The position numbers and the translations under genes were made by a program. A DNA stretch of 32,156 nucleotides. Source: Chloroflexota bacterium. Its GTDB lineage: Bacteria; Chloroflexota; UBA5177. The stretch is from positions 1 through 32,156 of the forward strand of contig JAICWV010000024.1 in assembly GCA_025966365.1 (NCBI GenBank). Direction: 5' to 3'. A model generated the notes under the pieces. The model was not told the DNA's origin and did no database searches. It was given only the letters and a program-made list of their open reading frames with translations. Within the stretch, counting starts at the first letter, position 1, and the number at the start of each line of letters is the position of its first letter. Of this stretch, positions 6,109-19,977 are shown piece by piece.

Positions 6109-6124
6109 CCGACATTATCGTCGG
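6109..6124. terminator. Possible two-way hairpin between convergent genes
   Basis: CCGAC-ATTATC-GTCGG forms a 5-bp stem with a 6-nt loop exactly where the convergent lipoprotein and glycosyltransferase genes meet. It includes the stop codon of the - strand gene. Placement suggests a bidirectional terminator, but the stem is short. Confidence 0.3.
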
Positions 6125-7581
6125 CGGCTGTATATCACGGTTCCGGCCGCATGGCCGATGTCGTGGTAGTGCCTCCTGACCCAGGGGACATACCCGGCCG
6201 CCTGGGTGAAGATGCCCCCCGGAGCCGTGGCCACCAGCACGGCATGATAGTCACGCGTGGCCGCAACCAATTGTCGCGTGCTTGCGTACCCGGTCTGGAA
6301 ACGGACGTTCGACAGGTCGCACAGCGGCGCGGGCACCAGGCGACTGGCCAGGTCGGCCGCTTCCAGGTTGTCGGAGGCGACAATGGATCCGGGGGCGGAG
6401 TGCATTCGAATCATTGCCGCAACGTGAAGATCTGACGCCGGAAGGCCCGGGATCAGCACATGCCGGTCGGCATGGGCGAGGCGCGGGACCATCGCGACGT
6501 AAACAAGGCCGGCGGCGGCCAGCGGGGCAGCTGACAGCCAGCGGTGCGAGCGAAGCTGCTCCACCAGCACGGTGACTCCGACGCCGGCACACACTGCCAG
6601 GCCCGGGAGGAGGATCACCGCGTGATGGGGAAAGAGGGGCCGAAATGCAAGGAGCATAACCGCGGTTCCACCCACCCACAGCAGGAGGAAAATCAGATCA
6701 TCCCAGACACCAAGCACTGCCAGCGTCAACAGCCCGGCGATGGCGAGCACCACCAGTCCCGGGTCGGTGGCGGCGAGGTCGCGCAGAATCTGAAGCGGCG
6801 GCAGCATGCCAGGCAGTCCGATGCCGGCCGCCCGCCCGTGCATGGTCACCACCTGGTCCCACTGCGCGGCGGGGTTGATAAGCAGGAAGTTCCCGGCGAC
6901 GGGGATGATGGCGGACGCCAGGAAGGCGCCGATCGAGCGCAGGCTGAGATATCGGTTTCCGGGCAGCCAGAGGATCCAGATCGCCGGAGCAAGCGTTTCC
7001 AGAGCGAAGAGCTTGAACAGGACCGCAGCGGCGAGGGCAAGCCCTGCGAGCACGGGGAGAATGGCAAGGCGAGAACGGCGAAATCCCACGGCGAACGCCA
7101 GTGACAGCGTGGCGAGCGCCATCATCGGCCCTTCCGCCTCGATGGCACGGCTGTACACGAGAAAGAGGGGCGATATCGCCAGGAGCAGGCCGGCGGCCCC
7201 GGCGGCGACGGGACCGGTCAGCAGCCACGCCAGGACCACGGTGGCGACCAGGCAGACCAGGCCGAAAAAAATCTCCATCCAGCGTGCTCCACTGATCGTG
7301 TCCCCGAAGAGATGCATGCTCCCCGCCAGAGATGCAAAGAGGAGCGGAGGCTGCGCCGAAAAGACCTGAGTGAACATGGAGTAGCCATGTTCGACCAGCC
7401 TGCTGCATGCCGTGTAGCGCCATTCGTCGGCATCGTCGAGCGGGAAGATGGAGGCGTCGTAGTGAAAATCCCCGCGATGGGCAAGCTCCCAGGCGAGGAA
7501 AAAAGTCCCGCCGGCCAGAAGCCCCAGGATTCCAGCCAGCGGTCCCATGAGTCGCCGGTATCCGTTGGTAGATGGCGTCAA
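6115..7581 (-). CDS. GT39/ArnT-like membrane glycosyltransferase
   Basis: The protein has 488 aa. The TTG start overlaps the stop of the upstream PAP2 gene (TTGA, 4 bp), which supports it over the in-frame ATG at residue 12. About ten membrane segments are visible. After the first, the extracytoplasmic loop has the acidic pattern FPLDDADEWRYTACSRL followed by SAQPPLLFASLAGSMHLFG, the layout of PMT_2/ArnT-type (GT39/GT83) enzymes, where an Asp-Glu pair is catalytic and the donor is a polyprenyl-phosphate sugar. A soluble C-terminal part follows the last membrane segment. Coupling to a PAP2 phosphatase suggests lipid-linked sugar transfer at the membrane, with the phosphatase perhaps recycling the lipid carrier. 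The acceptor is unknown. Confidence 0.8.
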   Translation of the reverse strand: MTPSTNGYRRLMGPLAGILGLLAGGTFFLAWELAHRGDFHYDASIFPLDDADEWRYTACSRLVEHGYSMFTQVFSAQPPLLFASLAGSMHLFGDTISGARWMEIFFGLVCLVATVVLAWLLTGPVAAGAAGLLLAISPLFLVYSRAIEAEGPMMALATLSLAFAVGFRRSRLAILPVLAGLALAAAVLFKLFALETLAPAIWILWLPGNRYLSLRSIGAFLASAIIPVAGNFLLINPAAQWDQVVTMHGRAAGIGLPGMLPPLQILRDLAATDPGLVVLAIAGLLTLAVLGVWDDLIFLLLWVGGTAVMLLAFRPLFPHHAVILLPGLAVCAGVGVTVLVEQLRSHRWLSAAPLAAAGLVYVAMVPRLAHADRHVLIPGLPASDLHVAAMIRMHSAPGSIVASDNLEAADLASRLVPAPLCDLSNVRFQTGYASTRQLVAATRDYHAVLVATAPGGIFTQAAGYVPWVRRHYHDIGHAAGTVIYSRRR

Positions 7582-8596: not shown

Positions 8597-8602
8597 TATA
8601 AT
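8597..8602 (+). promoter_or_regulatory. Perfect -10 box placed for a leaderless transcript
   Basis: A consensus TATAAT ends 5 nt before the GTG-GTG start of the downstream membrane-protein gene. Transcription would begin at or next to the start codon, giving a leaderless mRNA. No -35 consensus is seen; the 9-bp inverted repeat occupies that place. Confidence 0.5.
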
Positions 8603-8607
8603 GCTCG

Positions 8608-9528
8608 GTGGTGCGATTGTCAGGATGGCGTGACGCTCTACCCCGCGGACACGCGTTGATCGGACTTGTCCTGATCCTGTTGGGTGAATCCATGGTTGCC
8701 TTCAGGCATCGGCCCTGGACCGATTTTTACTTTCCCATCGTCTGGCTGGGATATGTCTTGTTGCTGGACGGAACCATCGAGCGCGTGGCCGGCGCCTCGC
8801 TCTATCGCCACAGTCGCCCGCTGTTCCTGGCCATGCTGCCGATCTCGGCCCTCTTCTGGTGGCTCTTCGAGCTCTTCAACGTTGCCGTCCGGAACTGGAC
8901 CTACGTGGGAGCGGAAGCGTACACCGGCCTGTCGTATGTGACCTTTGCCACCGCGTGTTTTGCGTTCGTGCTGCTTGCCGTCTGGCTAACGGCAATCTTT
9001 CTCCACCTCTTGTTGCCCGCTCACGGGCAGGTGAAATCAGCGGGATCCCCGCCGGGATGGCTTCTGGTGCTCATGGGCGCTCTCGGCCTGCTCTGCCTGG
9101 TGCTACCTGTTCTCTTCCCACGCTATGCCTTTGGGTTGATCTGGGGCTCCATGTATCTGATTCTCGACCCCATCAACGACCGACTGGGACGGCCCTCGAT
9201 GATCGGCGCCGTCTGGGGAGGACACTGGCGCCTGCCGGTCTGTTTCGCCCTGGCGGCGCTCACCTGCGGCTTCTTCTGGGAAGGCTGGAACTTCTGGGCC
9301 CTTCCCAAATGGACCTACTCCATTCCCTATGTCAACCACTGGCACATATTCGAAATGCCGTTGCTGGGCTGGATCGGCTACCTGCCCTTCGGACTCGAGC
9401 TTTTTGCCATGACTAATTTCGTGCTGCCACTCCTGGGCTTCGAGCCGCTAACTCTGGAACTCCCGGCTCGAAAAGTGCAGGTCACTGCCGAGCACGCGGT
9501 TCATCCCGAGCCGGCTACGTCTTCATAA
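8608..9528 (+). CDS. Multi-pass membrane protein with two repeated halves
   Basis: The protein has 306 aa and about eight hydrophobic segments. The start is GTG 8608 or the adjacent GTG 8611; no ribosome-binding site is present, but a TATAAT box lies just upstream, consistent with leaderless translation. I do not recognise the family. The two halves share motifs: W47-LGYVLLLDGTIERV and W179-GSMYLILDPINDRL; then E88-LFN-VAVRN-W97-T-Y and E225-GWN-FWALPK-W235-T-Y. This indicates an internal duplication and a pseudo-twofold fold, as in many transporters and some membrane enzymes. Conserved acidic, Asn and Trp-Thr-Tyr residues in each half are likely functional. It is divergent from the PAP2/GT39 pair, so a role in lipid or glycolipid metabolism is possible but unproven. 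Confidence 0.75.
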   Translation: MVRLSGWRDALPRGHALIGLVLILLGESMVAFRHRPWTDFYFPIVWLGYVLLLDGTIERVAGASLYRHSRPLFLAMLPISALFWWLFELFNVAVRNWTYVGAEAYTGLSYVTFATACFAFVLLAVWLTAIFLHLLLPAHGQVKSAGSPPGWLLVLMGALGLLCLVLPVLFPRYAFGLIWGSMYLILDPINDRLGRPSMIGAVWGGHWRLPVCFALAALTCGFFWEGWNFWALPKWTYSIPYVNHWHIFEMPLLGWIGYLPFGLELFAMTNFVLPLLGFEPLTLELPARKVQVTAEHAVHPEPATSS

Positions 9529-9544
9529 GGCCACACCATGCAGG

Positions 9545-10480
9545 CTACTGCGTTGGCCTCCAGGGCACCAGCACGCGCTCCAGCAGCACCATCAGGCCGA
9601 AGAAAAGCATGCACAGAATCGATACTGCCAGGACCGAAGCGAAGATTCCGGGCTTATCCAGCTTGAACTGGAAAATGCTCAGCAAGTAGCCGATGCCGGC
9701 CCCGTTGGCAGGGTTGGTCTCGAAACCGAAGATACTGTTCACTCCGACCGCCTGGAGCGCCTGACCCAGCGGATTGAAACCGCTGGCTGCCATCCATTCG
9801 CCGACGATCGCGCCCACGAAGGCCAGCGTCGACGTGATCTTGAGCGAGGAGAACAGGAACGGAATCGCGGACGGAAAGCGGACCTTGAGGAAGATCTGCG
9901 TCCGTGACGCATTGAGCAGCCGCATGAGCTCGAGCACCCGCGGATCCACCGACTTGAACCCGACGGTCATGTTGACGAGGGTGGGGAAGAAGGCAATGAG
10001 GACGGTCACAGCGACCACCGCCGCGGCATCCGGTGCCGCATTGAGGACCGCGGTTTTGAAAAACAGGATGCGGAGCAAAGGCACGTAGACGATGATGGGA
10101 ACGGTCTGTACCAGAATGGCCACCGGGTAAAAGGCGCGCTCCATGTTCACGGAGTAGGCAAAGCTGGTGGCTCCCAGGACGGCCAGCGCATTCCCGATCA
10201 GGAACCCCACCAGCGCGTCCTGAAATGTAATCAGGAGCCCGGTTCCGATGTCGGGCCAGTCTGCCTGCAGGCCGGAAATTGTCTGGCTCAGGTTGGGAAG
10301 CTCGTAGGGCGGGATGCCGAGCCAGGGCGGCACGAACTGCCAGATACCGAGAAAGGCAAGGACCACGAGCGTCGGCAGAACGTACTGGAGGACGCGTCCA
10401 CCATCCCCCCTGGGGCCGGCAGGCCGCAGAGGCGGGGCGATATCCGCTTCGTCAGCGACCTGCTCAGCTCGCGACGCCAC
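9545..10480 (-). CDS. ABC transporter permease, SsuC/TauC/ThiX-like
   Basis: The protein has 311 aa from GTG; it overlaps the upstream ATPase gene by 17 bp and is the last gene of the purine operon. Six or so membrane segments follow a hydrophilic N-terminus of about 30 aa. The EAA-type coupling loop for the ATPase lies around ELMRLLNASRTQIFLKVRFP, with the usual pattern of the BPD_transp_1 family found in taurine, sulfonate and pyrimidine-precursor importers. It forms the membrane channel for the NMT1-type binding protein encoded two genes upstream. Genomic position suggests a purine base or related heterocycle as substrate; the sequence alone does not fix it. Confidence 0.9.
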   Translation of the reverse strand: MASRAEQVADEADIAPPLRPAGPRGDGGRVLQYVLPTLVVLAFLGIWQFVPPWLGIPPYELPNLSQTISGLQADWPDIGTGLLITFQDALVGFLIGNALAVLGATSFAYSVNMERAFYPVAILVQTVPIIVYVPLLRILFFKTAVLNAAPDAAAVVAVTVLIAFFPTLVNMTVGFKSVDPRVLELMRLLNASRTQIFLKVRFPSAIPFLFSSLKITSTLAFVGAIVGEWMAASGFNPLGQALQAVGVNSIFGFETNPANGAGIGYLLSIFQFKLDKPGIFASVLAVSILCMLFFGLMVLLERVLVPWRPTQ

Positions 10481-11243
10481 CGGCGGTCCTTCCTTCCAGC
10501 GCCTGCAGGACGTGAAGCTCGGTCTCGTAGAACAGCTGCATGTGTTTCATGGAAGGGTCGCGCGGCCGCTCCAGGGGCACCAGGACGGTGTCCACGATTC
10601 GGCCGGGACGTGGGCTCAAAACGACCACGCGGTCGCTCAGGTAGATCGCTTCAGAAATGCTGTGGGTGACGAAGATGACCGTGGATCGCCGCTCGCCCCA
10701 GATCCGCAGCAGCTCGTTGTTCATCTCATCCCGGGTGATCTGGTCCAGTGCGCCAAACGGCTCGTCCATGAGCAACAGGTCCGGATCATAGGTGAGCGCG
10801 CGGGCAATGCTGACGCGCTGCCGCATTCCGCCGGAGAGCTGATCCGGGCGCTTGCTGCCGAAGTCCTCCAGTCCCACAAGACGCAGTAACTCCGCCACCT
10901 TCTGCCGCCCGCCCTCTCCGCTTCGTTTCATGATCTCCAGTGGGAGCCGCACGTTTTTTTCCGAGCTCCGCCACGGCAACAGGGCGGGTTCCTGAAACAC
11001 GAATCCGATCTCCCGACCCTGCCGCGCCCGGCTGCAGGACGCGCCGTTGATCAGGATACGGCCGGAGGTACTGGGGAGCAGATCGGCGATGAGTCGCAGC
11101 AACGTCGATTTCCCCGACCCTGACGGACCGATGATCGAGACGAACTCGTTATCGCCTACCTCAAACGTTATGTCGCGCAGCGCCTCGACCGGCTCATCTC
11201 CGCCGTAGGTCAGGGATACGCTGCGAAACTCAACTGTCGCCAT
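10464..11243 (-). CDS. ABC transporter ATP-binding protein, SsuB/TauB-like
   Basis: The protein has 259 aa. ATG 11243 is chosen because AAGGAG (11249-11254) lies 5 nt upstream; a TTG one codon earlier would leave only 2 nt. Walker A GPSGSGKST, Q-loop FVFQEPALLPW, ABC signature LSGGMRQRVSIARAL, Walker B LLLMDEPFGALD and H-loop FVTHSISEA are all present and intact. It powers import through the permease encoded downstream. The family (nitrate/sulfonate/taurine type) fits the NMT1-like binding protein upstream. A strong hairpin precedes this gene and may lower its expression relative to the binding protein. Confidence 0.93.
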   Translation of the reverse strand: MATVEFRSVSLTYGGDEPVEALRDITFEVGDNEFVSIIGPSGSGKSTLLRLIADLLPSTSGRILINGASCSRARQGREIGFVFQEPALLPWRSSEKNVRLPLEIMKRSGEGGRQKVAELLRLVGLEDFGSKRPDQLSGGMRQRVSIARALTYDPDLLLMDEPFGALDQITRDEMNNELLRIWGERRSTVIFVTHSISEAIYLSDRVVVLSPRPGRIVDTVLVPLERPRDPSMKHMQLFYETELHVLQALEGRTAGGVAS

Positions 11244-11264
11244 CAAGGCTCCTTACCGACAGGA

Positions 11265-11291
11265 GTGGGGGGACGACAAGCGTCCCCCCAC
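11265..11291 (-). other. Intercistronic hairpin between binding-protein and ATPase genes
   Basis: Perfect 11-bp inverted repeat, 11265-11275 with 11281-11291, GC-rich, with a 5-nt loop. It lies in the 66-nt gap after the substrate-binding-protein gene. No T-run follows on the transcribed strand. In ABC importer operons such hairpins often stabilise the upstream mRNA or partly terminate transcription, so that the binding protein is made in excess; that role is inferred. Confidence 0.7.
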
Positions 11292-11309
11292 CGGTAGCCG
11301 GTTGTGTTG

Positions 11310-12374
11310 CTATTTGTACGGATTGAACTGATTGGTGTAAATCGTGGCCGCGTTCGGCTTTTTGGTGATCTCGTGGTACTTGAAGAGCGTGTTGATGCTC
11401 AGCTGCCACTGCCGCGTATTCATCGTGCCGGCGTACTTGTTCTTGCCGGTCTGCGAGAACGGTTTGAACGCCTTCAGCTCTTCAGTTTGCTGCGCCAGAT
11501 TCGTCTTCGCGCTCACGCCCTTGCCAGCCTGGGAGGCGGGGAAGTACTTGGCGACCGTGAGCCTGGCGGCCTGCTGCGGGTGGCTGTGCGCCCACTGGAA
11601 TCCGCGTGCCACGACTCCCGTCACCTTGCGCACCAACGCCGGGTTACTGGAGATGAGGTTCGTTGTGGTGAACATGACATCGTCGTAGAAGTGGAAGCAG
11701 TAATTCGCGGCCGGGAAGGTGCGCGTCTGCACTCCCTGCAGCTTCAGGGACACCGGCTCGTTCATGACGAACGTCAGGTATGCATCCACCTGGCCCGCTG
11801 TAAGCGGAGTTGTGTCATAGAGCACCGGTACCGGCTTCCAGTCGCTGTCCGAGAGACCCGGGTTAGGCGTGCAGGACATCATAGTCGACGGAACGTAAAG
11901 CTCGTGGGGCTGGTAGCCGATACGCTTGCCCTTGAGTTGCTTCAGGCTGGTGATGCCGCTCTTCTTGAGCACTGTCAGGCCGAAGACGGACTTCTGCGTA
12001 TCGCTGTAGAGCGCCCGGATGGGCACTCCCTTGGAAACGGCAATGGCAATGGCAGCTCCGCTCTGGAAGCCGAAGGTGTTGCCTCCCCGAGCAGGGACAT
12101 CCGTCTCGGGGAACACGCCCTGGGCATAGGGCTTGAATCCCAGGTTAATCCCGGCCTTTTGCCACCATCCCTTCTCTTTCGCCACCCACAATCCAGCAAA
12201 CTCCACATTGGGGAGCCAATTGAGGATGAAGTAGACGTTTGTCATACTTTTCCTCGGGTGCGTTGGGGACACGGACTTCGCCTGGGTAGACGTCCAGGCG
12301 CTGAAGATCATGGACAGAGCCACGACCGCGGTCGCGGCGCCAATCATAGCGCGGCGCCTCACATCGAACGGCAC
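11310..12374 (-). CDS. NMT1/THI5-like ABC substrate-binding protein
   Basis: The protein has 354 aa from GTG 12374, which has AGGAGG 5 nt upstream; an in-frame TTG at 12410 lacks a ribosome-binding site. The N-terminus DVRRRAMIGAATAVVALSMIF is a signal peptide with a possible weak twin-arginine motif. The mature part opens with NWLPNVEFAGLWVAKEKGWW, the signature of NMT1/THI5-like periplasmic binding proteins, then has DTQKSVFGLTVLKKSGI and LKGKRIGYQP, typical of this two-lobed fold. Relatives bind hydroxymethylpyrimidine, riboflavin, taurine or nucleobase-like compounds. Placement behind adenine and 8-oxoguanine deaminases and a xanthine dehydrogenase suggests a purine ligand. The Cys-rich motif of yeast THI5 enzymes is absent, so this is a binding protein and not a pyrimidine synthase. 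Confidence 0.88.
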   Translation of the reverse strand: MPFDVRRRAMIGAATAVVALSMIFSAWTSTQAKSVSPTHPRKSMTNVYFILNWLPNVEFAGLWVAKEKGWWQKAGINLGFKPYAQGVFPETDVPARGGNTFGFQSGAAIAIAVSKGVPIRALYSDTQKSVFGLTVLKKSGITSLKQLKGKRIGYQPHELYVPSTMMSCTPNPGLSDSDWKPVPVLYDTTPLTAGQVDAYLTFVMNEPVSLKLQGVQTRTFPAANYCFHFYDDVMFTTTNLISSNPALVRKVTGVVARGFQWAHSHPQQAARLTVAKYFPASQAGKGVSAKTNLAQQTEELKAFKPFSQTGKNKYAGTMNTRQWQLSINTLFKYHEITKKPNAATIYTNQFNPYK

Positions 12375-12514
12375 ATTCTCCTCCTGGGCTTCACTGTTCT
12401 CGGTGTGCAAATGGACCGCGTCCGGCCCAGCGCTAGACGTGGCTACTCCTTCTAGAGGTGGGGAGCCTCAGGGACCGTTTCGATGGTTCAGCTTAACGGA
12501 GGCACCCGCCGAAA
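12375..12514 (-). promoter_or_regulatory. 140-nt leader ahead of the transporter genes
   Basis: This is the longest gap inside the operon. On the - strand it contains several short self-complementary stretches (GAGG/CCTC, GGAC-GCG-GTCC) and ends in the AGGAGG ribosome-binding site. It may hold a secondary promoter or a structured leader. I could not fit it to a known riboswitch class. Confidence 0.3.
12380..12385 (-). promoter_or_regulatory. Ribosome-binding site fixing the binding-protein start
   Basis: AGGAGG on the - strand, 5 nt before GTG 12374. It shows that the reading frame upstream to TTG 12410 is not part of the protein. Confidence 0.75.
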
Positions 12515-13876
12515 TCAATCGAGTCCTGCGCGGGTGAGGAGTCGGCGAGATGCTTCGTTCTGCAGCCGGGTGAGGACTTCATCATCGTGGTGGACAAGAC
12601 GTCCCTCTTCGACGACCACCTTTCCGTTGACTATCACCATCGTCGGCTGGGTGGCCCCGAGGACAACCGCGGCGAGGAGGTCTTGCTCACCCCCGGCGCA
12701 CGCCAGGGTGCTGGTATCGAACATGACCACGTCGGCCGCTTTACCTGCCTCGATACTTCCGATGTCGTTTCGGCCCAGCGCGGCGGCGCCTCCACGAGTC
12801 GCCAATCTCACCGCATCTCGCACCGGCATCGCTCCCGCTCCGTCTCGCACGCGCGCCGCCAGGACCGCCTGTTTCACTTCCTGGCGCATGTCGTTGGCGT
12901 CGTTGGACGCGCTCCCGTCCACGCCCAGTCCGACGGAGATTCCGGCATCGAGAAAACGTCGAACCGGCGCGAGACCGGATCCAAGGAGCATATTGGACGT
13001 GGGGCAGTGGGCCACGGACGTCCCGCTCCCTGCCAGGCCCGTGACGTCATTGTCCGTGGGATGAACGCAGTGGGCCACCCAGACGTCCGGCGCCAGCCAT
13101 CCCAACGAGCTCAGAAGCTGGACCGGAGACACGCCGAATTCTGCGCGGCTGTAAGCATCCTCGTCCAGCGTCTCGGCGATGTGCGTATGCAGCCGGACCC
13201 CGGCTCGCCGGGCCAGGTCGGCGCTCTGTTTCATAAGCTCCGGGGTGACCGAAAACGGGGAGCACGGAGCCAGTCCGATCCGTACCATGGCGCCCGGGGC
13301 AGGGTCATGATACGCCGCGATCACCCGCTCCGAATCGCTCAGAATTTCGTCAATGCTCTGGACAACGGAATCGGGAGGGAGACCGCCATCCTTCACGCTA
13401 AGGTCCATGCTTCCCCGCGTCGGGTGAAAGCGGACGCCGATGTCACGCGCCGCTTCCACCTGGGCATCCAGGAAATGCTCGCTCCCGGGCGGGAAGACGT
13501 AGAGATGGTCCGCACTGGTCGTGCAACCGGACAACACCAACTCGGCAAGTCCCGCCCGCGTGGAAACCGCGACCATGTCCTGGTCCAGCCCGGCCCAGAT
13601 GGGATAGAGCTGCTGCAGCCACGGGAAAAGCGGCTGTCCCCGGCTCTCGGGAAAGGCCCGGGTGAGGGTTTGATAGAGGTGGTGGTGTGTGTTGATGAAA
13701 CCGGGAAGCGCAATAAAATTTCGGCAGTCGACGCGCCGTTCGAACTCCCCGCTTACATTCGGGCCAACCTCGTCAATCCAGCCGTCGCGGATGGCGATAT
13801 CGGTATCGGCCGATTCCGCCCCGGCGTCGTCCATGCTTGCCACCAGGCGGCAGCCTTCCAGAAGGATGGAGGTCAT
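12515..13876 (-). CDS. 8-oxoguanine deaminase-like amidohydrolase
   Basis: The protein has 453 aa from ATG 13876, which overlaps the adenine deaminase stop (ATGA). It belongs to the amidohydrolase superfamily: first metal site in NTHHHLYQTLTRA (His64, His66), HTHIAE for the third His, WVAHCVHP for the fourth, and the catalytic Asp in LGVDGSASND. The strings WLQQLYPIWAGLD and RGSMDLSVKDGGLPPDSVV are characteristic of the 8-oxoguanine deaminase/hydroxydechloroatrazine-hydrolase branch. Reaction in that family: 8-oxoguanine plus water to urate plus ammonia. In this operon it would funnel oxidised guanine into the same pool as xanthine dehydrogenase. Related guanine or isoguanine deaminase specificity is possible. 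Confidence 0.88.
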   Translation of the reverse strand: MTSILLEGCRLVASMDDAGAESADTDIAIRDGWIDEVGPNVSGEFERRVDCRNFIALPGFINTHHHLYQTLTRAFPESRGQPLFPWLQQLYPIWAGLDQDMVAVSTRAGLAELVLSGCTTSADHLYVFPPGSEHFLDAQVEAARDIGVRFHPTRGSMDLSVKDGGLPPDSVVQSIDEILSDSERVIAAYHDPAPGAMVRIGLAPCSPFSVTPELMKQSADLARRAGVRLHTHIAETLDEDAYSRAEFGVSPVQLLSSLGWLAPDVWVAHCVHPTDNDVTGLAGSGTSVAHCPTSNMLLGSGLAPVRRFLDAGISVGLGVDGSASNDANDMRQEVKQAVLAARVRDGAGAMPVRDAVRLATRGGAAALGRNDIGSIEAGKAADVVMFDTSTLACAGGEQDLLAAVVLGATQPTMVIVNGKVVVEEGRLVHHDDEVLTRLQNEASRRLLTRAGLD

Positions 13877-15597
13877 GTGATGCCGAGCGGCACAACCTGG
13901 AAGCTGCGAACGTCGACGATCCCCTGGTCCGTGACACGCATCTCCGGAATAACCGACAGCGCCAGAAAGCTGAGGTACATGAAAGGCGTGTCGATAGTCA
14001 CGCCCAGGTCCCGAAGCGCCGCTTCGAGGCGCTCCAGATCGCGAACCACTTCGTCCCCGGGAGCGGTGCTCATCAGACCGGCAATCTCAAGCGGCAGCTC
14101 CCCGACAATCGTGCCGGTGTCGCAGACCACCAGCCCGCCGCCGATCTCGGCAACTCGACTTACGCAGCACGCCATGTCCTCATCGTCGACGCCGACCACG
14201 GCGACGTTGTGGGCGTCGTGAGCGACGGTTGAGGCGAAGGCGCCGCGGCGGAGGCCGAAACCGCGGACGAAGCCGATCCCCGTTCTGCCACTGGCGTGAT
14301 GCCGCTCGACCACTGCTAGCTTGGCCAGGTCCCGATCCGGATCGGCGACGATCTCCCCACCGTTGATTGTTGGTACGTCTGATGTTGCGCGGGTGATGAC
14401 CTGATCGGGTACCAGCTCCACAATTCGGATCCGCGTTTCCCCGCGAGCGTTGACGGCAAAGTGTTCGGCGCCGGCATGGCCGAGATGCACCGAGTTGCGC
14501 ACGCCGTCCGGCACTGGCGCTGCCGTGAATGGCAGCGCCCGGCCCGCGCGCGCAACCTCGTGCCCTTCCCGATAGACGATTTCGGGCTCGAACGTTTCGA
14601 GGTCGCCCAGGACCAGAATGTCTGCGATGTAACCTGGAGCGACGGCGCCAAGATCGTGGAGTCCGTGATAGCGGGCCACGTTGATGGTTGCGAGTTTGAC
14701 AGCGTCGGCCACCGACAGGCCGTTCTCGACCGCCTTCCTCACCATCGAATTCATGTGGCCTTCACCGAGCAGGGTGCCCGCTTCCCGGTCGTCGGTCACG
14801 AACATGCAGTTGTCCGTCCCGAAGTCCCGGATCATGGGAAGCAGATCGACCAGGTTTCGGATCATCGACGCTTCGCGAATCATGATCCACATGCCCAGAC
14901 GTCGCTTTTCGATGGCCTCAGCCAGGTCGCTGCACTCGTGGTCGCTGCCTGGACCCGCCATCAGATAGGCGTTCAGCTCCCTACCTTTGATGCCGGGCGC
15001 GTGGCCGTCCACATGGCGGAATCCGGTGAGCTCCATCTTGTCCAGCAGCGCCTGATCCCCGGCAACCGCCCCCGGATAATTCATCATCTCGGCAATGCCG
15101 ATCACCCGGGGCTCGAACAGCAGAGGGGCGAGCTGCGTCGCTTCCAGCGCTCCCGCGGCCGATTCGAACGGACTTGCGGGGACGCAGGAGGGAATGGCGA
15201 CGAAGACCTGGAGCGGAAGGCCCTCGCTCGCCTCCAGCACGTAGCGGATGCCCGCGACTCCCAACACATTCGCCAGCTCGTGCGGATCAACCACCGCGGA
15301 TGTCGTCCCCCGCGGCACAATCGCGCGGGCAAACTCGTCAACGTTGAGCTTCGAGCTTTCGATATGGCAATGACCGTCAATGAATCCGGGGACGACGAAT
15401 TTGGCGCTGACGTCTTCAGTGCGCGGGCCATCGTACGATCCGACACCGACGATGCGCCCGTCGGCGATAGCCACGTCAGCTTCGAACAGCTCGCCGGTGA
15501 AGACCGACAGCACCGTGCCACCCTTCAGAACCAGGTCTGCGGGCTCGTCTCCGCGGGCAATGGCAATCCAGCGGCTACGCATCGGGCGGCGCGCCAC
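13873..15597 (-). CDS. ade: Adenine deaminase
   Basis: The protein has 574 aa from GTG 15597, with GGAGG 5 nt upstream; it overlaps the carbamoyltransferase gene by 23 bp. An in-frame ATG five codons later is an alternative. It matches Ade-type adenine deaminase: metal site PGFIDGHCHIESS (His76, His78), then RGTTSAVVDPHELANVLG, GIAEMMNYPG, GHAPGIKG and MFVTDDREAGTL, with a long C-terminal domain including VVAHDAHN-type residues (TVAHDAHNVAVVGVDDEDM). Reaction: adenine to hypoxanthine plus ammonia, using two divalent metals. Its product is a direct substrate for the xanthine dehydrogenase encoded upstream. Length fits the family. Confidence 0.95.
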   Translation of the reverse strand: MARRPMRSRWIAIARGDEPADLVLKGGTVLSVFTGELFEADVAIADGRIVGVGSYDGPRTEDVSAKFVVPGFIDGHCHIESSKLNVDEFARAIVPRGTTSAVVDPHELANVLGVAGIRYVLEASEGLPLQVFVAIPSCVPASPFESAAGALEATQLAPLLFEPRVIGIAEMMNYPGAVAGDQALLDKMELTGFRHVDGHAPGIKGRELNAYLMAGPGSDHECSDLAEAIEKRRLGMWIMIREASMIRNLVDLLPMIRDFGTDNCMFVTDDREAGTLLGEGHMNSMVRKAVENGLSVADAVKLATINVARYHGLHDLGAVAPGYIADILVLGDLETFEPEIVYREGHEVARAGRALPFTAAPVPDGVRNSVHLGHAGAEHFAVNARGETRIRIVELVPDQVITRATSDVPTINGGEIVADPDRDLAKLAVVERHHASGRTGIGFVRGFGLRRGAFASTVAHDAHNVAVVGVDDEDMACCVSRVAEIGGGLVVCDTGTIVGELPLEIAGLMSTAPGDEVVRDLERLEAALRDLGVTIDTPFMYLSFLALSVIPEMRVTDQGIVDVRSFQVVPLGIT

Positions 15598-16624: not shown

Positions 16625-17671
16625 TTACCGGATCACGGCCAGCCGGCTGCTCTCCAGCCTCTCGGTGTCCTGCTCGCTGGTCGGATGGTCACGGTCGGGT
16701 ACCTCAAGCTCTTTCGGCGCCCCGCATAGCTCGGTGGAAAGATAGCGCAGCCCGTTGTCATTCACCATAGTCAGGATCCTCTGTAGCCGCGGCCGTGCTC
16801 GGGCCAGCTTGAGCGCCCCGACCACGTTACAGCCAGAGGAGATGCCGCAAAAAATTCCCTCCTCGCGAGCCAATCTGCGCGCCATCTCAATGGCCTCGTC
16901 CGAGCTGACTTCGATGACACCGTCAAGCAGGTCGAGGTGCAGGTTGTCGGGAATAAACCCATCACCGATTCCCTCGATGCGATGCGGTCCCCACCCACCC
17001 CCGGCCAGAATGGGGCACTCTTCGGGCTCGACCGCGAAAACTTTGATCGCTTCCCACATCTGCCGGAGGTAGGTAGCCACGCCTGTCAGCGTCCCTCCCG
17101 TACCCTGGGCGTCCACGAAGGCGTCGAGCCGGCCCTGCATCTGGTCCCAGATCTCCGGTCCCGTGGTCCGCCGATGGGCCTCGATGTTGTCAGGGTTGGA
17201 GAACTGCGACACCTCCCAATACTTCTCGGGCCCGGCATCCTTGAGCTGCTTGACCTTCTCCAGCACCAGGTCCACATCGCTCTCGGCGCCGGGAGTGAGA
17301 ATGAGTTGCGCGCCGTAGGCCTGGATGGTCTTCTTGCGCTCGTCGCTCATCCCGGACGGCATCACGATTACCACCGGATAGCCTCGCGCGGCGCCGGTCA
17401 TGGCGGTAGCAATGCCGGTGTTCCCGGTGGTTCCCTCGATAATGGTCATGCCGGGCCGAAGATCACCTCGCTCCTCCGCGCCCGCCACCAGGAACGGCAG
17501 GATGCGGTCTTTCACGCTCCCGCTGGGGCCGTAATACTCGAGTTTGACGTAGATCTCGGCATCCACATCCGACGCGGTGCGGCTCAGCCGGACCACCGGG
17601 GTAAATCCGGCGGTGGCGAGCACGCTCTGAGCCGGGATCTTTCGTGCGGACCAATCGACCACTTCGCTCAC
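16625..17671 (-). CDS. Cysteine-synthase-like PLP enzyme of the purine operon
   Basis: The protein has 348 aa; the GTG start overlaps the xanthine dehydrogenase stop (GTGA). Fold-type II PLP protein: Schiff-base lysine Lys54 in PSGSVKDR, substrate loop TTGNTG (81-86) where CysK has TSGNTG, phosphate loop GTGGTLTG (190-197), HRIEGIGDGFIP (230-241), GISSG (277-281) and DNGLRYLST near the C-terminus. Overall it resembles O-acetylserine sulfhydrylase or cystathionine beta-synthase catalytic domains, not diaminopropionate ammonia-lyase by length and motifs. No sulfur gene is adjacent. Because YgeX, another fold-type II PLP enzyme, fills this place in E. coli-type purine clusters, I infer beta-elimination or beta-replacement on a ureido- or amino-alanine. 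A plain cysteine synthase is the alternative. Confidence 0.85.
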   Translation of the reverse strand: MSEVVDWSARKIPAQSVLATAGFTPVVRLSRTASDVDAEIYVKLEYYGPSGSVKDRILPFLVAGAEERGDLRPGMTIIEGTTGNTGIATAMTGAARGYPVVIVMPSGMSDERKKTIQAYGAQLILTPGAESDVDLVLEKVKQLKDAGPEKYWEVSQFSNPDNIEAHRRTTGPEIWDQMQGRLDAFVDAQGTGGTLTGVATYLRQMWEAIKVFAVEPEECPILAGGGWGPHRIEGIGDGFIPDNLHLDLLDGVIEVSSDEAIEMARRLAREEGIFCGISSGCNVVGALKLARARPRLQRILTMVNDNGLRYLSTELCGAPKELEVPDRDHPTSEQDTERLESSRLAVIR

Positions 17672-19977
17672 GATTGTTGCTTCTCCTCCAGCGCCGCCAG
17701 TACCTTTTCGGCCGTCATGGGAAGGGAGTGGAGACGGATGCCGACGGCGTCGTAAATGGCGTTGGATACGGCAGGTGCCGGACCGTTGATTGCGATTTCC
17801 GCCACGCTCTTGGCGCCAAAGGGTCCGGTCGGCTCCTCGGCCTCGACCAAGATCGTGGTTAGACGAGGCATGTCGGCGGCACAGAAAATCTTGTAATCCA
17901 TGAAGGAGGGGTTCAGCACCTGTCCGTCCGGTCCCACCTGGATCTCCTCGGTGAGCGCGTAGCCGAGCCCCTGGGCCACTGCCCCCTCGACCTGGCCCTC
18001 ACATATATCCGGATTGAGCGCCTTGCCCACGTCCACTGCCGAGACCACCTCTACCGGCCGGACCTGCCCGGTTTCCGTGTCTACCTCGACCTCAACAAAC
18101 ATCGCGACGAACGGCGGTGGGCTCTCCTTGGTCGCGTGCGTGCCCTTGCCGATGACGACCGTCTTGTCTTCCCCGTACAGACACTCCAGCGCGATCTCCT
18201 GCAGGGTCACGCTCTTGCCCGAGAGCGAGCGCACCGCGCCCTCATGGACCAGGAGACCTTCGGGGTCCTCCTGCAGCATTCGGGCCGCCTGATTCACGAT
18301 CTGGTTTCGCGCATCCTCGGCCGCCTTCAACACGCAGGTGCCGGTGATATATGCGGTACTGCTGGCGTAGGCGCCGTAGTCAAAGGTGATGTCGTCGGTG
18401 TTACCGGATCGGATGACGATGTCCTCGATGGAAACGCCCAGGACTTCTGCCGCTATTTGACACAGCGTCGTGTCGCTGCCTGTTCCGATGTCGGCCGAGC
18501 CCACGTGGAGATTGAACGAGGCGTCTTCGTTCATGCGAATCGTGGCCGCGGCCAGTTCGTCACCGGCCACGCCGCTGCCCTGCATCAGAATTGCCATGCC
18601 TACTCCACGCTTGATGGGGCCGTCTCCCGGCTTGCCTCGCTTCTCGTGCCAGCCGATGGCGGCCGCGCCGCGCTCAATGCACTCGGGGAGGCCGGATGAA
18701 TGAATCACGCGCGCCTTCTTGCCGGCACCTTCGCCCGCGGCCGCACTCATGAGATCGGTGTCACCCTGACGGATGTGGTTGAGCTTCCGGAATTCGAGCG
18801 GATCCATGCCCGCCGCTTCAGCTACCTCATCCATCTGCACTTCCATCGCGAAGAAACCCTGTGGCGCGCCGTAGCCCCGAAACGCCCCGGCAATCGGCAG
18901 GTTGGTATACACGATGTCGGCGTAGAACTTGACGTTCGGAGAGCGATACAGGGGCAGTGGCTTGGTACCGGTGTTGCCGGTCACCGTGAGCGCGTGCGTG
19001 CCGTAGGGGCCGGTATTGGTCAGGACGTTGAGCGAGTTGGCCAGGATGGTTCCGTCTCGTCGAATGCCGGTGGACAGTCGAATGTGCTGCGGGTGTCGGT
19101 TGCGCGCGATCGTGAACTCTTCCAGGCGGGTGTACTCGAGCTTGACCGGCCGGCCCGTTCGCATGGCCAGTACCGCGGAGATCGGTTCGGTAACCACTTC
19201 CTGCTTGTTTCCGAATCCACCTCCCACGCGCGGCTTGATCACGTGCACGTCCTTGACCGGAATTTCGAGAGCAAACGCGATCATGCGGCGGCAGTGATAT
19301 GGGATCTGCGTGCTTGTCCGCAAAACCAGGCGGCGATCCTCGTCGAATAGGGCGATGGTCACGTGCGGCTCCAAACACGTGTGCTGCTGGTACTGAACGA
19401 AGAACTCGTTTTCCACCACGATATCGGCCTCGGCGAGTCCCCGGGCCACGTCCCCGTGCTCCACGTCGATGTGGGCCGCGACGTTATGGGCCGGGTCGTA
19501 GATTCCGTAACTTTCCGTTTCGTCGTGGATCAGCGGAGCTCCATCGTTCATGGCATCGTGGAAGTCGAGAACCGCTGGAAGCGGCTCGTACTCGACGCGG
19601 ATGAGCTGGGTCGCACGCTCTGCGATCTCCGGTGTTTCGGCGGCAACTGCCGCAACCGCGTCTCCGATGAAGCGCACCTTCCGGTCGAGCACGTACATGT
19701 CGTACGGCGACGGCTCGGGCCACGATTGGCCCGCGCTCGTATACGGGATCCGTGGCACATTCTCGTGGGTGATCACGGCGCGGACGCCGGGAAGCGCTTC
19801 CGCCTCGGAGGTGTCAATTGAAATGATGCGGGCGTGCGCGTGCGGGCTCTTCAGGAGCTTGGCATGGAGAAGCCCCCGAATGTGAATATCGTCAGTAAAG
19901 GTCCCCCGGCCGGTCGCCAGCTTGACGCCGTCCACTCTGCGGGCGCGATGTCCGACCACGGACAACTGAGACTTCAT
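17668..19977 (-). CDS. xdhA: Xanthine dehydrogenase-type molybdenum subunit
   Basis: The protein has 769 aa from ATG 19977, overlapping the 2Fe-2S gene stop (ATGA). It is the molybdopterin-cytosine-dinucleotide or molybdopterin-binding large subunit: N-terminal GRGTFTDDI hammerhead domain, then PRVGGGFGNKQE (Q-loop glycines), AFRGYGAPQGFFAMEVQ (the Arg is at the place that orients xanthine in XDHs), SADIGTGSDTTLCQIAAEVLG, and GPFGAKSVAEIAING with the catalytic Glu. It oxidises hypoxanthine or xanthine by hydroxylation; electrons pass to the 2Fe-2S and FAD subunits encoded just upstream. Neighbouring purine deaminases support a purine substrate, although nicotinate- or aldehyde-type relatives share these motifs. 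Confidence 0.92.
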   Translation of the reverse strand: MKSQLSVVGHRARRVDGVKLATGRGTFTDDIHIRGLLHAKLLKSPHAHARIISIDTSEAEALPGVRAVITHENVPRIPYTSAGQSWPEPSPYDMYVLDRKVRFIGDAVAAVAAETPEIAERATQLIRVEYEPLPAVLDFHDAMNDGAPLIHDETESYGIYDPAHNVAAHIDVEHGDVARGLAEADIVVENEFFVQYQQHTCLEPHVTIALFDEDRRLVLRTSTQIPYHCRRMIAFALEIPVKDVHVIKPRVGGGFGNKQEVVTEPISAVLAMRTGRPVKLEYTRLEEFTIARNRHPQHIRLSTGIRRDGTILANSLNVLTNTGPYGTHALTVTGNTGTKPLPLYRSPNVKFYADIVYTNLPIAGAFRGYGAPQGFFAMEVQMDEVAEAAGMDPLEFRKLNHIRQGDTDLMSAAAGEGAGKKARVIHSSGLPECIERGAAAIGWHEKRGKPGDGPIKRGVGMAILMQGSGVAGDELAAATIRMNEDASFNLHVGSADIGTGSDTTLCQIAAEVLGVSIEDIVIRSGNTDDITFDYGAYASSTAYITGTCVLKAAEDARNQIVNQAARMLQEDPEGLLVHEGAVRSLSGKSVTLQEIALECLYGEDKTVVIGKGTHATKESPPPFVAMFVEVEVDTETGQVRPVEVVSAVDVGKALNPDICEGQVEGAVAQGLGYALTEEIQVGPDGQVLNPSFMDYKIFCAADMPRLTTILVEAEEPTGPFGAKSVAEIAINGPAPAVSNAIYDAVGIRLHSLPMTAEKVLAALEEKQQS

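Follow-up and report, generated by a model that had tools for sequence, protein, structure and literature searches.

An internally duplicated membrane protein family of Chloroflexota and its CarH-type neighbour in one clade

The gene, its surroundings and its relatives

The window analysed here, 32,156 nucleotides of contig JAICWV010000024.1 from a Chloroflexota genome (assembly GCA_025966365.1), carries at 8608-9528 of its forward strand a conserved open reading frame for a membrane protein with an internal duplication. The frame, its coordinates and both copies of its repeated motif are as given in the preliminary description, which was made from the sequence alone. The gene and the features on its upstream side are as follows.

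6115-7581, minus strand: gene for a PMT_2-type glycosyltransferase (Pfam PMT_2, 3.1e-10); same cluster in relatives L002, L003 and L087
7578-8531, minus strand: divergent gene for a PAP2-superfamily protein (Pfam PAP2_3, 8.8e-22); same place in L002 and L003
8571-8594, no strand: inverted repeat of 9-bp arms GAGCACCGG and CCGGTGCTC with a 6-base spacer, shortly before the hexamer
8597-8602, plus strand: TATAAT, a -10-like hexamer read by eye, five bases before the GTG
8608-9528, plus strand: the open reading frame, 306 amino acids with a GTG start; an eight-helix duplicated membrane protein, judged by relatives and predicted helices

Similar hexamers, also read by eye, precede a possible start by 5-6 bases in L002, L003 and L087. 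Because of this spacing, the sequence suggests a leaderless transcript in these four members of family-level group f1; a consensus scan reported no promoter. The inverted repeat has perfect arms, lies in the divergent promoter that separates the PAP2 and family genes, and is a possible operator. No inverted repeat of this kind was found in L003 or L087, and L002 has a different one of 7 bp. The best NCBIfam match of the PAP2 protein is phosphoinositol dihydroceramide synthase (E 4.8e-16), far below the cut-off (59 vs 480 bits).

In the window, L002 and L003, ABC import genes lie on the other side of the gene from the PAP2 and PMT_2 genes. Positions 9545-15597 and 17668-19977 of the window hold an ABC transporter with an NMT1/THI5-like binding protein, two amidohydrolases, one of them adenine-deaminase-like, and a molybdopterin oxidoreductase, which together may serve purine salvage. 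L002 has ABC and amidohydrolase genes like these.

One genome scan gave four homologous loci, and homologues were present in 17 of 101 genomes, the window's own counted. Across the window's phylum the family occurs in 53 of 400 Chloroflexota genomes, a count that includes the window's own and one distant match (G008, E 1.8e-6), and it occurs in 6 of 296 genomes of Bacteroidota, the phylum of Mariniphaga. Chloroflexota is the main home of the family, which was found in two phyla. No relatives were found among viral contigs, in which nine stretches fit a pattern, and plasmids gave no matches with the L004 protein as query.

The window protein has no Pfam or NCBIfam match above cut-off. Its sub-threshold matches are to DUF2070 (E 0.38) and DPM3 (0.71) in Pfam and to Opp4B in NCBIfam (E 0.012, 14.9 bits against a cut-off of 450), all weak and at chance level. 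Among 19 family members, weak Pfam matches were scattered and none exceeded a stated cut-off, the best being DUF308 at E 0.0016 in one member, and Opp4B appeared at 0.012 in one. PDB sequences gave nothing convincing and no match below E 0.024 (for the window protein, 6z2i at 0.027). The preliminary description could not place the protein in a named family, and the Pfam, NCBIfam, PDB sequence and fold searches agree with it. In the portions of the literature reached by text search, a method ill-suited to an unnamed family, we recognised neither a described family nor a CarH partner of this kind. By the libraries searched, these appear to be undescribed internally duplicated membrane proteins: the family is found in two phyla and has 39 positions conserved at 90% or more among 58 members, yet it has no entry there.

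Duplication, conserved residues and predicted structure

The alignment behind these counts comprises 58 different member sequences from the fetched loci, and member counts exclude fragments such as L023. Within the gene, the following features are distinguished, all on the plus strand.

8647-9012, plus strand: first half, residues 14-135 of the AlphaFold2 model, forming a repeat with the second half
8857-8904, plus strand: motif copy 1, W84-W85-x-F87-E88-x2-N91-x4-N96-W97-x-Y99, from the 58-member alignment
9055-9432, plus strand: second half, residues 150-275 of the AlphaFold2 model, forming a repeat with the first half
9277-9318, plus strand: motif copy 2, W224-E225-x-W227-N228-x4-P233-K234-W235-x-Y237, from the 58-member alignment
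9352-9399, plus strand: second-half signature E249-M-P-x2-G254-x2-G257-Y-x-P260-F-x2-E264, from the 58-member alignment

A duplication had been proposed from repeated motifs, and profile comparison of the 58 members bears it out. The hhalign score of half 1 against half 2 is 40.8 (P 2.6e-6, probability 88.6%), compared with 16.0 for the reversed second half and with a mean of 12.1 and a maximum of 18.7 over 60 column shuffles; the hhalign controls in this study are few, at 60 to 100 shuffles. In the window protein alone the halves are weakly similar (a single blastp comparison, 65 columns, 31% identity, E 0.019). When 35 members are used, hhalign locally pairs residues 20-83 with 154-219, and its global and maximum-accuracy alignments cover the half in full, placing F87-E88, N91, W97 and Y99 against W224-E225, N228, W235 and Y237. 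The single-domain homologues envisaged at the outset did not appear when the second half was searched against 201 genomes, except for two short fragments (G031:C62 and G099:C78). That search was positive in 27 genomes, and 27 of the 29 matches listed lie in open frames of at least 288 residues.

Copy 1 of the motif region (residues 46-99) reads WLGYVLLLDGTIERV...FELFNVAVRNWTY and copy 2 (residues 179-237) WGSMYLILDPINDRL...WEGWNFWALPKWTY. The pattern [WF]-E-x2-[ND]-x(4,8)-W-x-[YFW], chosen after alignment, occurs exactly twice in all 58 members. The core that is conserved reads W...D...G-x-S...[FW]E-x2-N-x(5,6)-W-x-Y; the '[E/D]-R' element of the first motif as initially described (residues 58-59 and 191-192) varies. 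The claim of paired conserved polar residues also holds: E88 and E225 are each present in 58/58 members, N91 in 57 and N228 in 58. The aromatic pairs W46/W179, F87/W224, W97/W235 and Y99/Y237 are likewise invariant, with 58/58 at each position. Further pairs are S64 (56/58) with S197 (54/58) and D54 (56/58) with D187 (39/58, Glu in 18).

Elsewhere in copy 1, W84 and N96 are found in all 58 members and W85 in 53; in copy 2, W227 is found in 57, P233 in 52 and K234 in 49. The second-half signature is similarly constant (M250, P251, G254, G257, P260 and F261 in 58, E264 in 56, Y258 in 54 and E249 in 53). Its P260-x3-E264 is complete in 56/58 members and has a first-half counterpart at 123/127 in 35/58; the window protein has Leu at both 123 and 127, so it lacks the first-half copy. 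Overall, Glu, Asn, Trp, Tyr, Phe, Gly and Pro are prominent in the conserved set. No column of the 58-member alignment has His in half or more of the sequences, and the only mostly-Cys column is 220. This combination of invariant acidic, amide and aromatic residues with no mostly-His column and one mostly-Cys column argues against di-iron or haem chemistry. A di-iron or other histidine-based membrane oxygenase or desaturase was considered and rejected, as conserved His clusters are absent from the 58 members.

AlphaFold2 models were built from the window protein with L002-L005 (five sequences; pTM 0.79, mean pLDDT 76.9) and with a Bacteroidota member first (pTM 0.76, mean pLDDT 76.5). Both have four long helices per half, the second and third being separated by a short one. 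In the first half the helices are 14-31, 42-61, 70-93 and 108-135 (broken at 120), with the short one at 65-68; in the second they are 150-169, 175-192 (broken at 179-180), 208-230 and 246-275, with the short one at 198-203. From their length and hydrophobicity, we infer that the long helices span the membrane. In the window model pLDDT falls below 50 at 233-235 and 243-252, the latter including the conserved E-M-P. A pseudo-symmetric fold had been anticipated, and in the models the order helix, helix, short helix, helix, W-x-Y loop, helix is indeed the same in each half. Because the number of helices per half is even, the two halves of the predicted structure should face the same way. The earlier interpretation is supported in part, as regards the duplication, the paired invariant polar residues, the lack of a named family and the repeated order of elements.

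Foldseek returned no fold match (best E 1.2 for the window model and 0.72 for the second model), and the best hit of a BFVD structure search had E 2.6. In VIA-align, the window model matched the bacterial Insig homologue MvINS (PDB 4xu4 and 4xu6) with Z 5.4, beside a V/A-ATPase subunit with 5.6 over 57 residues. MvINS has the broadest overlap among the top rows (137-163 residues, rmsd 4.4-4.8), at a Z within the range of common helical arrangements, and has no sequence match to the family. With the second model the top places go to receptors and designed proteins, and the best 50 rows do not include MvINS. The similarity to the six-helix Insig fold, seen for one of two models, is not taken as evidence.

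A CarH-type regulator upstream of the gene in one clade of relatives

Unnamed duplicated membrane families are common, and the interest of this one therefore rests on its pairing with CarH. We searched 51 loci in all frames and recovered the member in 51/51; 49 were counted, leaving aside L140 (the same gene as L004) and L125 (a distant relative). The flanks of these neighbourhoods differ from locus to locus, some stop at contig ends, and Pfam annotation was made for chosen neighbours. In 14 of the 49 neighbourhoods, L095 and L117 among them, a MerR/B12-binding regulator, the chief recurring neighbour outside the window's own gene arrangement, lies directly upstream on the same strand; by family-level group these are f11 (4), f18 (5) and f37 (5). 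Measured from the matched family-profile stretch, the regulator's stop is at -44 to +32 bases in 13 of the 14 and at 169 in L092.

Pfam MerR_1, B12-binding and B12-binding_2 all score above cut-off in three of three regulators scanned. The motifs Wx9EH, E-x-H and R-x-WERRY are present in 13/13 full-length copies, the fourteenth (L123) being cut by a contig end, and the long B12 motif, in a relaxed form, is present in 10 of 11 regulators tested. As far as the consulted portions of one source go, an intact Wx9EH distinguishes AdoCbl-dependent CarH from CarA in myxobacteria, many CarH proteins have a His after the Trp, and carotenogenesis is regulated by CarH (PMC9304148). A His following the Trp occurs in none of the 13 full-length regulators here. 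By its domains and Wx9EH, the neighbouring gene is a predicted CarH-type B12 light sensor, and it is predicted to respond to light. CarH/LitR sensors are a partner gene of the family and not a relative.

In a tree of 49 members, all 14 CarH-linked members fall in one clade of 20 with support 99/97, made up of groups f11, f18, f34 and f37. The CarH label requires 7 changes on this tree; 500 shuffles of it required 12.5 on average and always more than 7. The window protein and its f1 and f2 relatives form a separate group (100/99) near the CarH-linked clade. The simplest reading is one early pairing with CarH followed by losses; several gains also fit. At 35 of the 49 loci, the window included, the stretch searched holds no CarH-type gene, and 6 of these loci lie within the linked clade of 20. 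The search of the window's 32 kb found none, and in the window's genome we found no clear CarH, with one weak match (E 2.5e-4) in a frame of 1173 residues; control of the gene there must therefore differ.

In a post hoc comparison, CarH operator-like repeats gave a weak signal: at 4 of 11 loci, the four-repeat score was reached by at most 3% of 200 shuffles. Such repeats upstream of the window gene were rejected, as the best three-repeat score, 8/12, was reached by 0.335 of 200 shuffles. The pairing in 14/20 members of one clade offers a handle on the function of the family, which may be part of the light response in the CarH-linked branch, and it predicts light-raised expression in those hosts.

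Isoprenoid association and possible functions

Phytoene/squalene synthase (PF00494) is found in 39 of 53 carriers of the family and in 167 of 347 non-carriers (Fisher P 6e-4, ignoring shared ancestry). Like the other co-occurrence tests, this one includes some incomplete genomes. PF00494 is absent from 14 of the 53 carriers, 5 of them at least 90% complete, and from the Bacteroidota carrier G400, so the product of phytoene/squalene synthase is unlikely as a general substrate. No carotenoid genes were recognised among the annotated neighbours, and in the one case compared (G357) the family gene and PF00494 are about 0.48 Mb apart.

Two types of carotenoid enzyme invite comparison. To our knowledge, both CarR-type lycopene cyclases, with two similar domains, and CruF-type carotenoid hydratases, of similar length to the family, are membrane proteins with no described cofactor. 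In a 101-genome set, and ignoring shared ancestry, the lycopene cyclase TIGR03462 occurs in 7/17 carriers and 12/84 other genomes (P 0.017), and CruF in 4/17 and 30/84 (P 0.41). The idea that the family replaces lycopene cyclase is not supported, given the cyclase's occurrence in 7/17 carriers as against 12/84 others. Kinship with CruF (PF04240) was also rejected: the hhalign score against 11 CruF sequences, 12.3, is below that of the reversed control, 18.0, and there is no Pfam match. CarR-type lycopene cyclase domains occur as two pairs in the window's genome, at C125:1267-1841 (L065) and C221:22298-22845; a gene for phytoene/squalene synthase lies about 3.6 kb from the second pair.

We suspect that the family may be a membrane enzyme that needs no cofactor and has an isoprenoid or similar lipid as its substrate, with a reaction of the cyclase, hydratase or isomerase type. 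We put the probability of this at about one in three; it is favoured because of the conserved residue set, the CarH pairing and the isoprenoid association. In this scenario, each half would contribute a cluster of Glu/Asn and aromatic residues to a pocket inside the membrane. An acidic residue would protonate a double bond of the lipid, and Trp, Tyr and Phe would stabilise the resulting cation on its way to a cyclised, hydrated or isomerised product. At loci with CarH in front of the gene, the repressor would come off in light, and the gene would then be expressed for photoprotection. The chemistry would be comparable to the cofactor-free chemistry of lycopene cyclases, carotenoid hydratases and sterol isomerases. 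If this reading is true, a light-controlled membrane enzyme joins the cofactor-free isoprenoid cyclases and hydratases. The fuller proposal is unlikely: a new superfamily of duplicated cofactor-free isoprenoid-protonating enzymes, turned on in light by a B12 photoreceptor in one Chloroflexota clade and making an undescribed photoprotective lipid.

Other functions deserve consideration. A transporter, channel or scramblase-like protein, whose parallel repeats would enclose a central path with E88/E225, N91/N228 and K234 along its walls and so move a small solute or lipid, seems to us rather doubtful. Both models have eight helices in two parallel repeats, a layout also known from some transporters, with conserved polar residues within predicted helices, and ABC import genes are among the window's neighbours. 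However, no search of Pfam, NCBIfam, PDB or folds gave a convincing match to a transporter family, the conserved set is aromatic-rich, and the even number of helices in each half of the predicted topology misfits inverted-repeat transporters, whose two repeats are oppositely oriented and each have an odd helix count. The tight, often overlapping gene order with CarH at 14/49 loci could instead point to a membrane sensor or signal relay of the photo-oxidative stress response, a non-enzyme acting as partner of CarH or responding to the same signal; in Myxococcus, the membrane proteins CarR and CarF take part in light signalling. We consider this quite unlikely, since 35/49 loci lack the neighbour and the window's genome lacks a clear copy, no Pfam signalling domain scores above cut-off, and the E/N/W/Y residues are equally invariant (58/58 or nearly) in members without CarH. 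As a transporter or a sensor, the family would still be a new conserved partner of a B12 photoreceptor.

A very remote relationship to the CarR-type lycopene cyclases, with the same two-domain layout, is improbable, although by eye the order of motifs is alike. Each cyclase domain (TIGR03462/PF18916; CrtYc-CrtYd) has an acidic residue, an aromatic loop and a Pro/Glu helix, with D-N-x7-W-W-Y and D-x2-A-x5-W-x-I each followed by P-x-E-E. The P-x-E-E at the start of each domain's last helix, which defines these cyclases, is absent from the family, where the P-x3-E pairs stand instead, and the cyclases have about three helices per domain compared with the four predicted per half here. Against seven cyclases of the phylum, hhalign gave 22.4 (P 0.033, probability 1.5%, reversed 15.5), which is not significant. 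Block shuffles of the cyclases reached the score in 1/100 cases for the family, in 5/100 for half 2, a borderline value, and in 74/100 for half 1, which is no better than shuffles; an unrelated PMT profile scored 19.7 against the family and 20.2 against half 1. Neither TIGR03462 nor PF18916 matches the window protein or the 19 members. In the window's genome, the ordinary cyclase genes matching TIGR03462 are elsewhere, on C125 and C221 and not on the window contig (C75). On the profile comparison and the lack of TIGR03462/PF18916 matches, this kinship is not established. Least probable of all is a role in membrane lipids or lipid-linked glycans together with the divergent PAP2 and glycosyltransferase genes; the PAP2 gene is divergent in the window, L002 and L003, and PMT_2 is found there and in L087, but this gene order occurs only in f1 among the neighbourhoods listed.

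Several other genes adjoin members of the family. Immediately before the member in L093 and L119 stands a gene for an ICMT/PEMT-type methyltransferase, which speaks in favour of the enzyme reading, and a CYTH-domain gene adjoins the member in the same two Chloroflexota loci (L093 3964-4497 and L119 7974-8483) and in a Bacteroidota locus (L139 5905-6414). An FHA-domain gene directly follows the member in L005 (FhaA_N), L107 and L109 and is at most five genes away in L111 and L126. In L102 (6463-8881, genome G157), the member separates a diadenylate cyclase gene (PF02457) from a YbbR gene, two genes that are usually adjacent.
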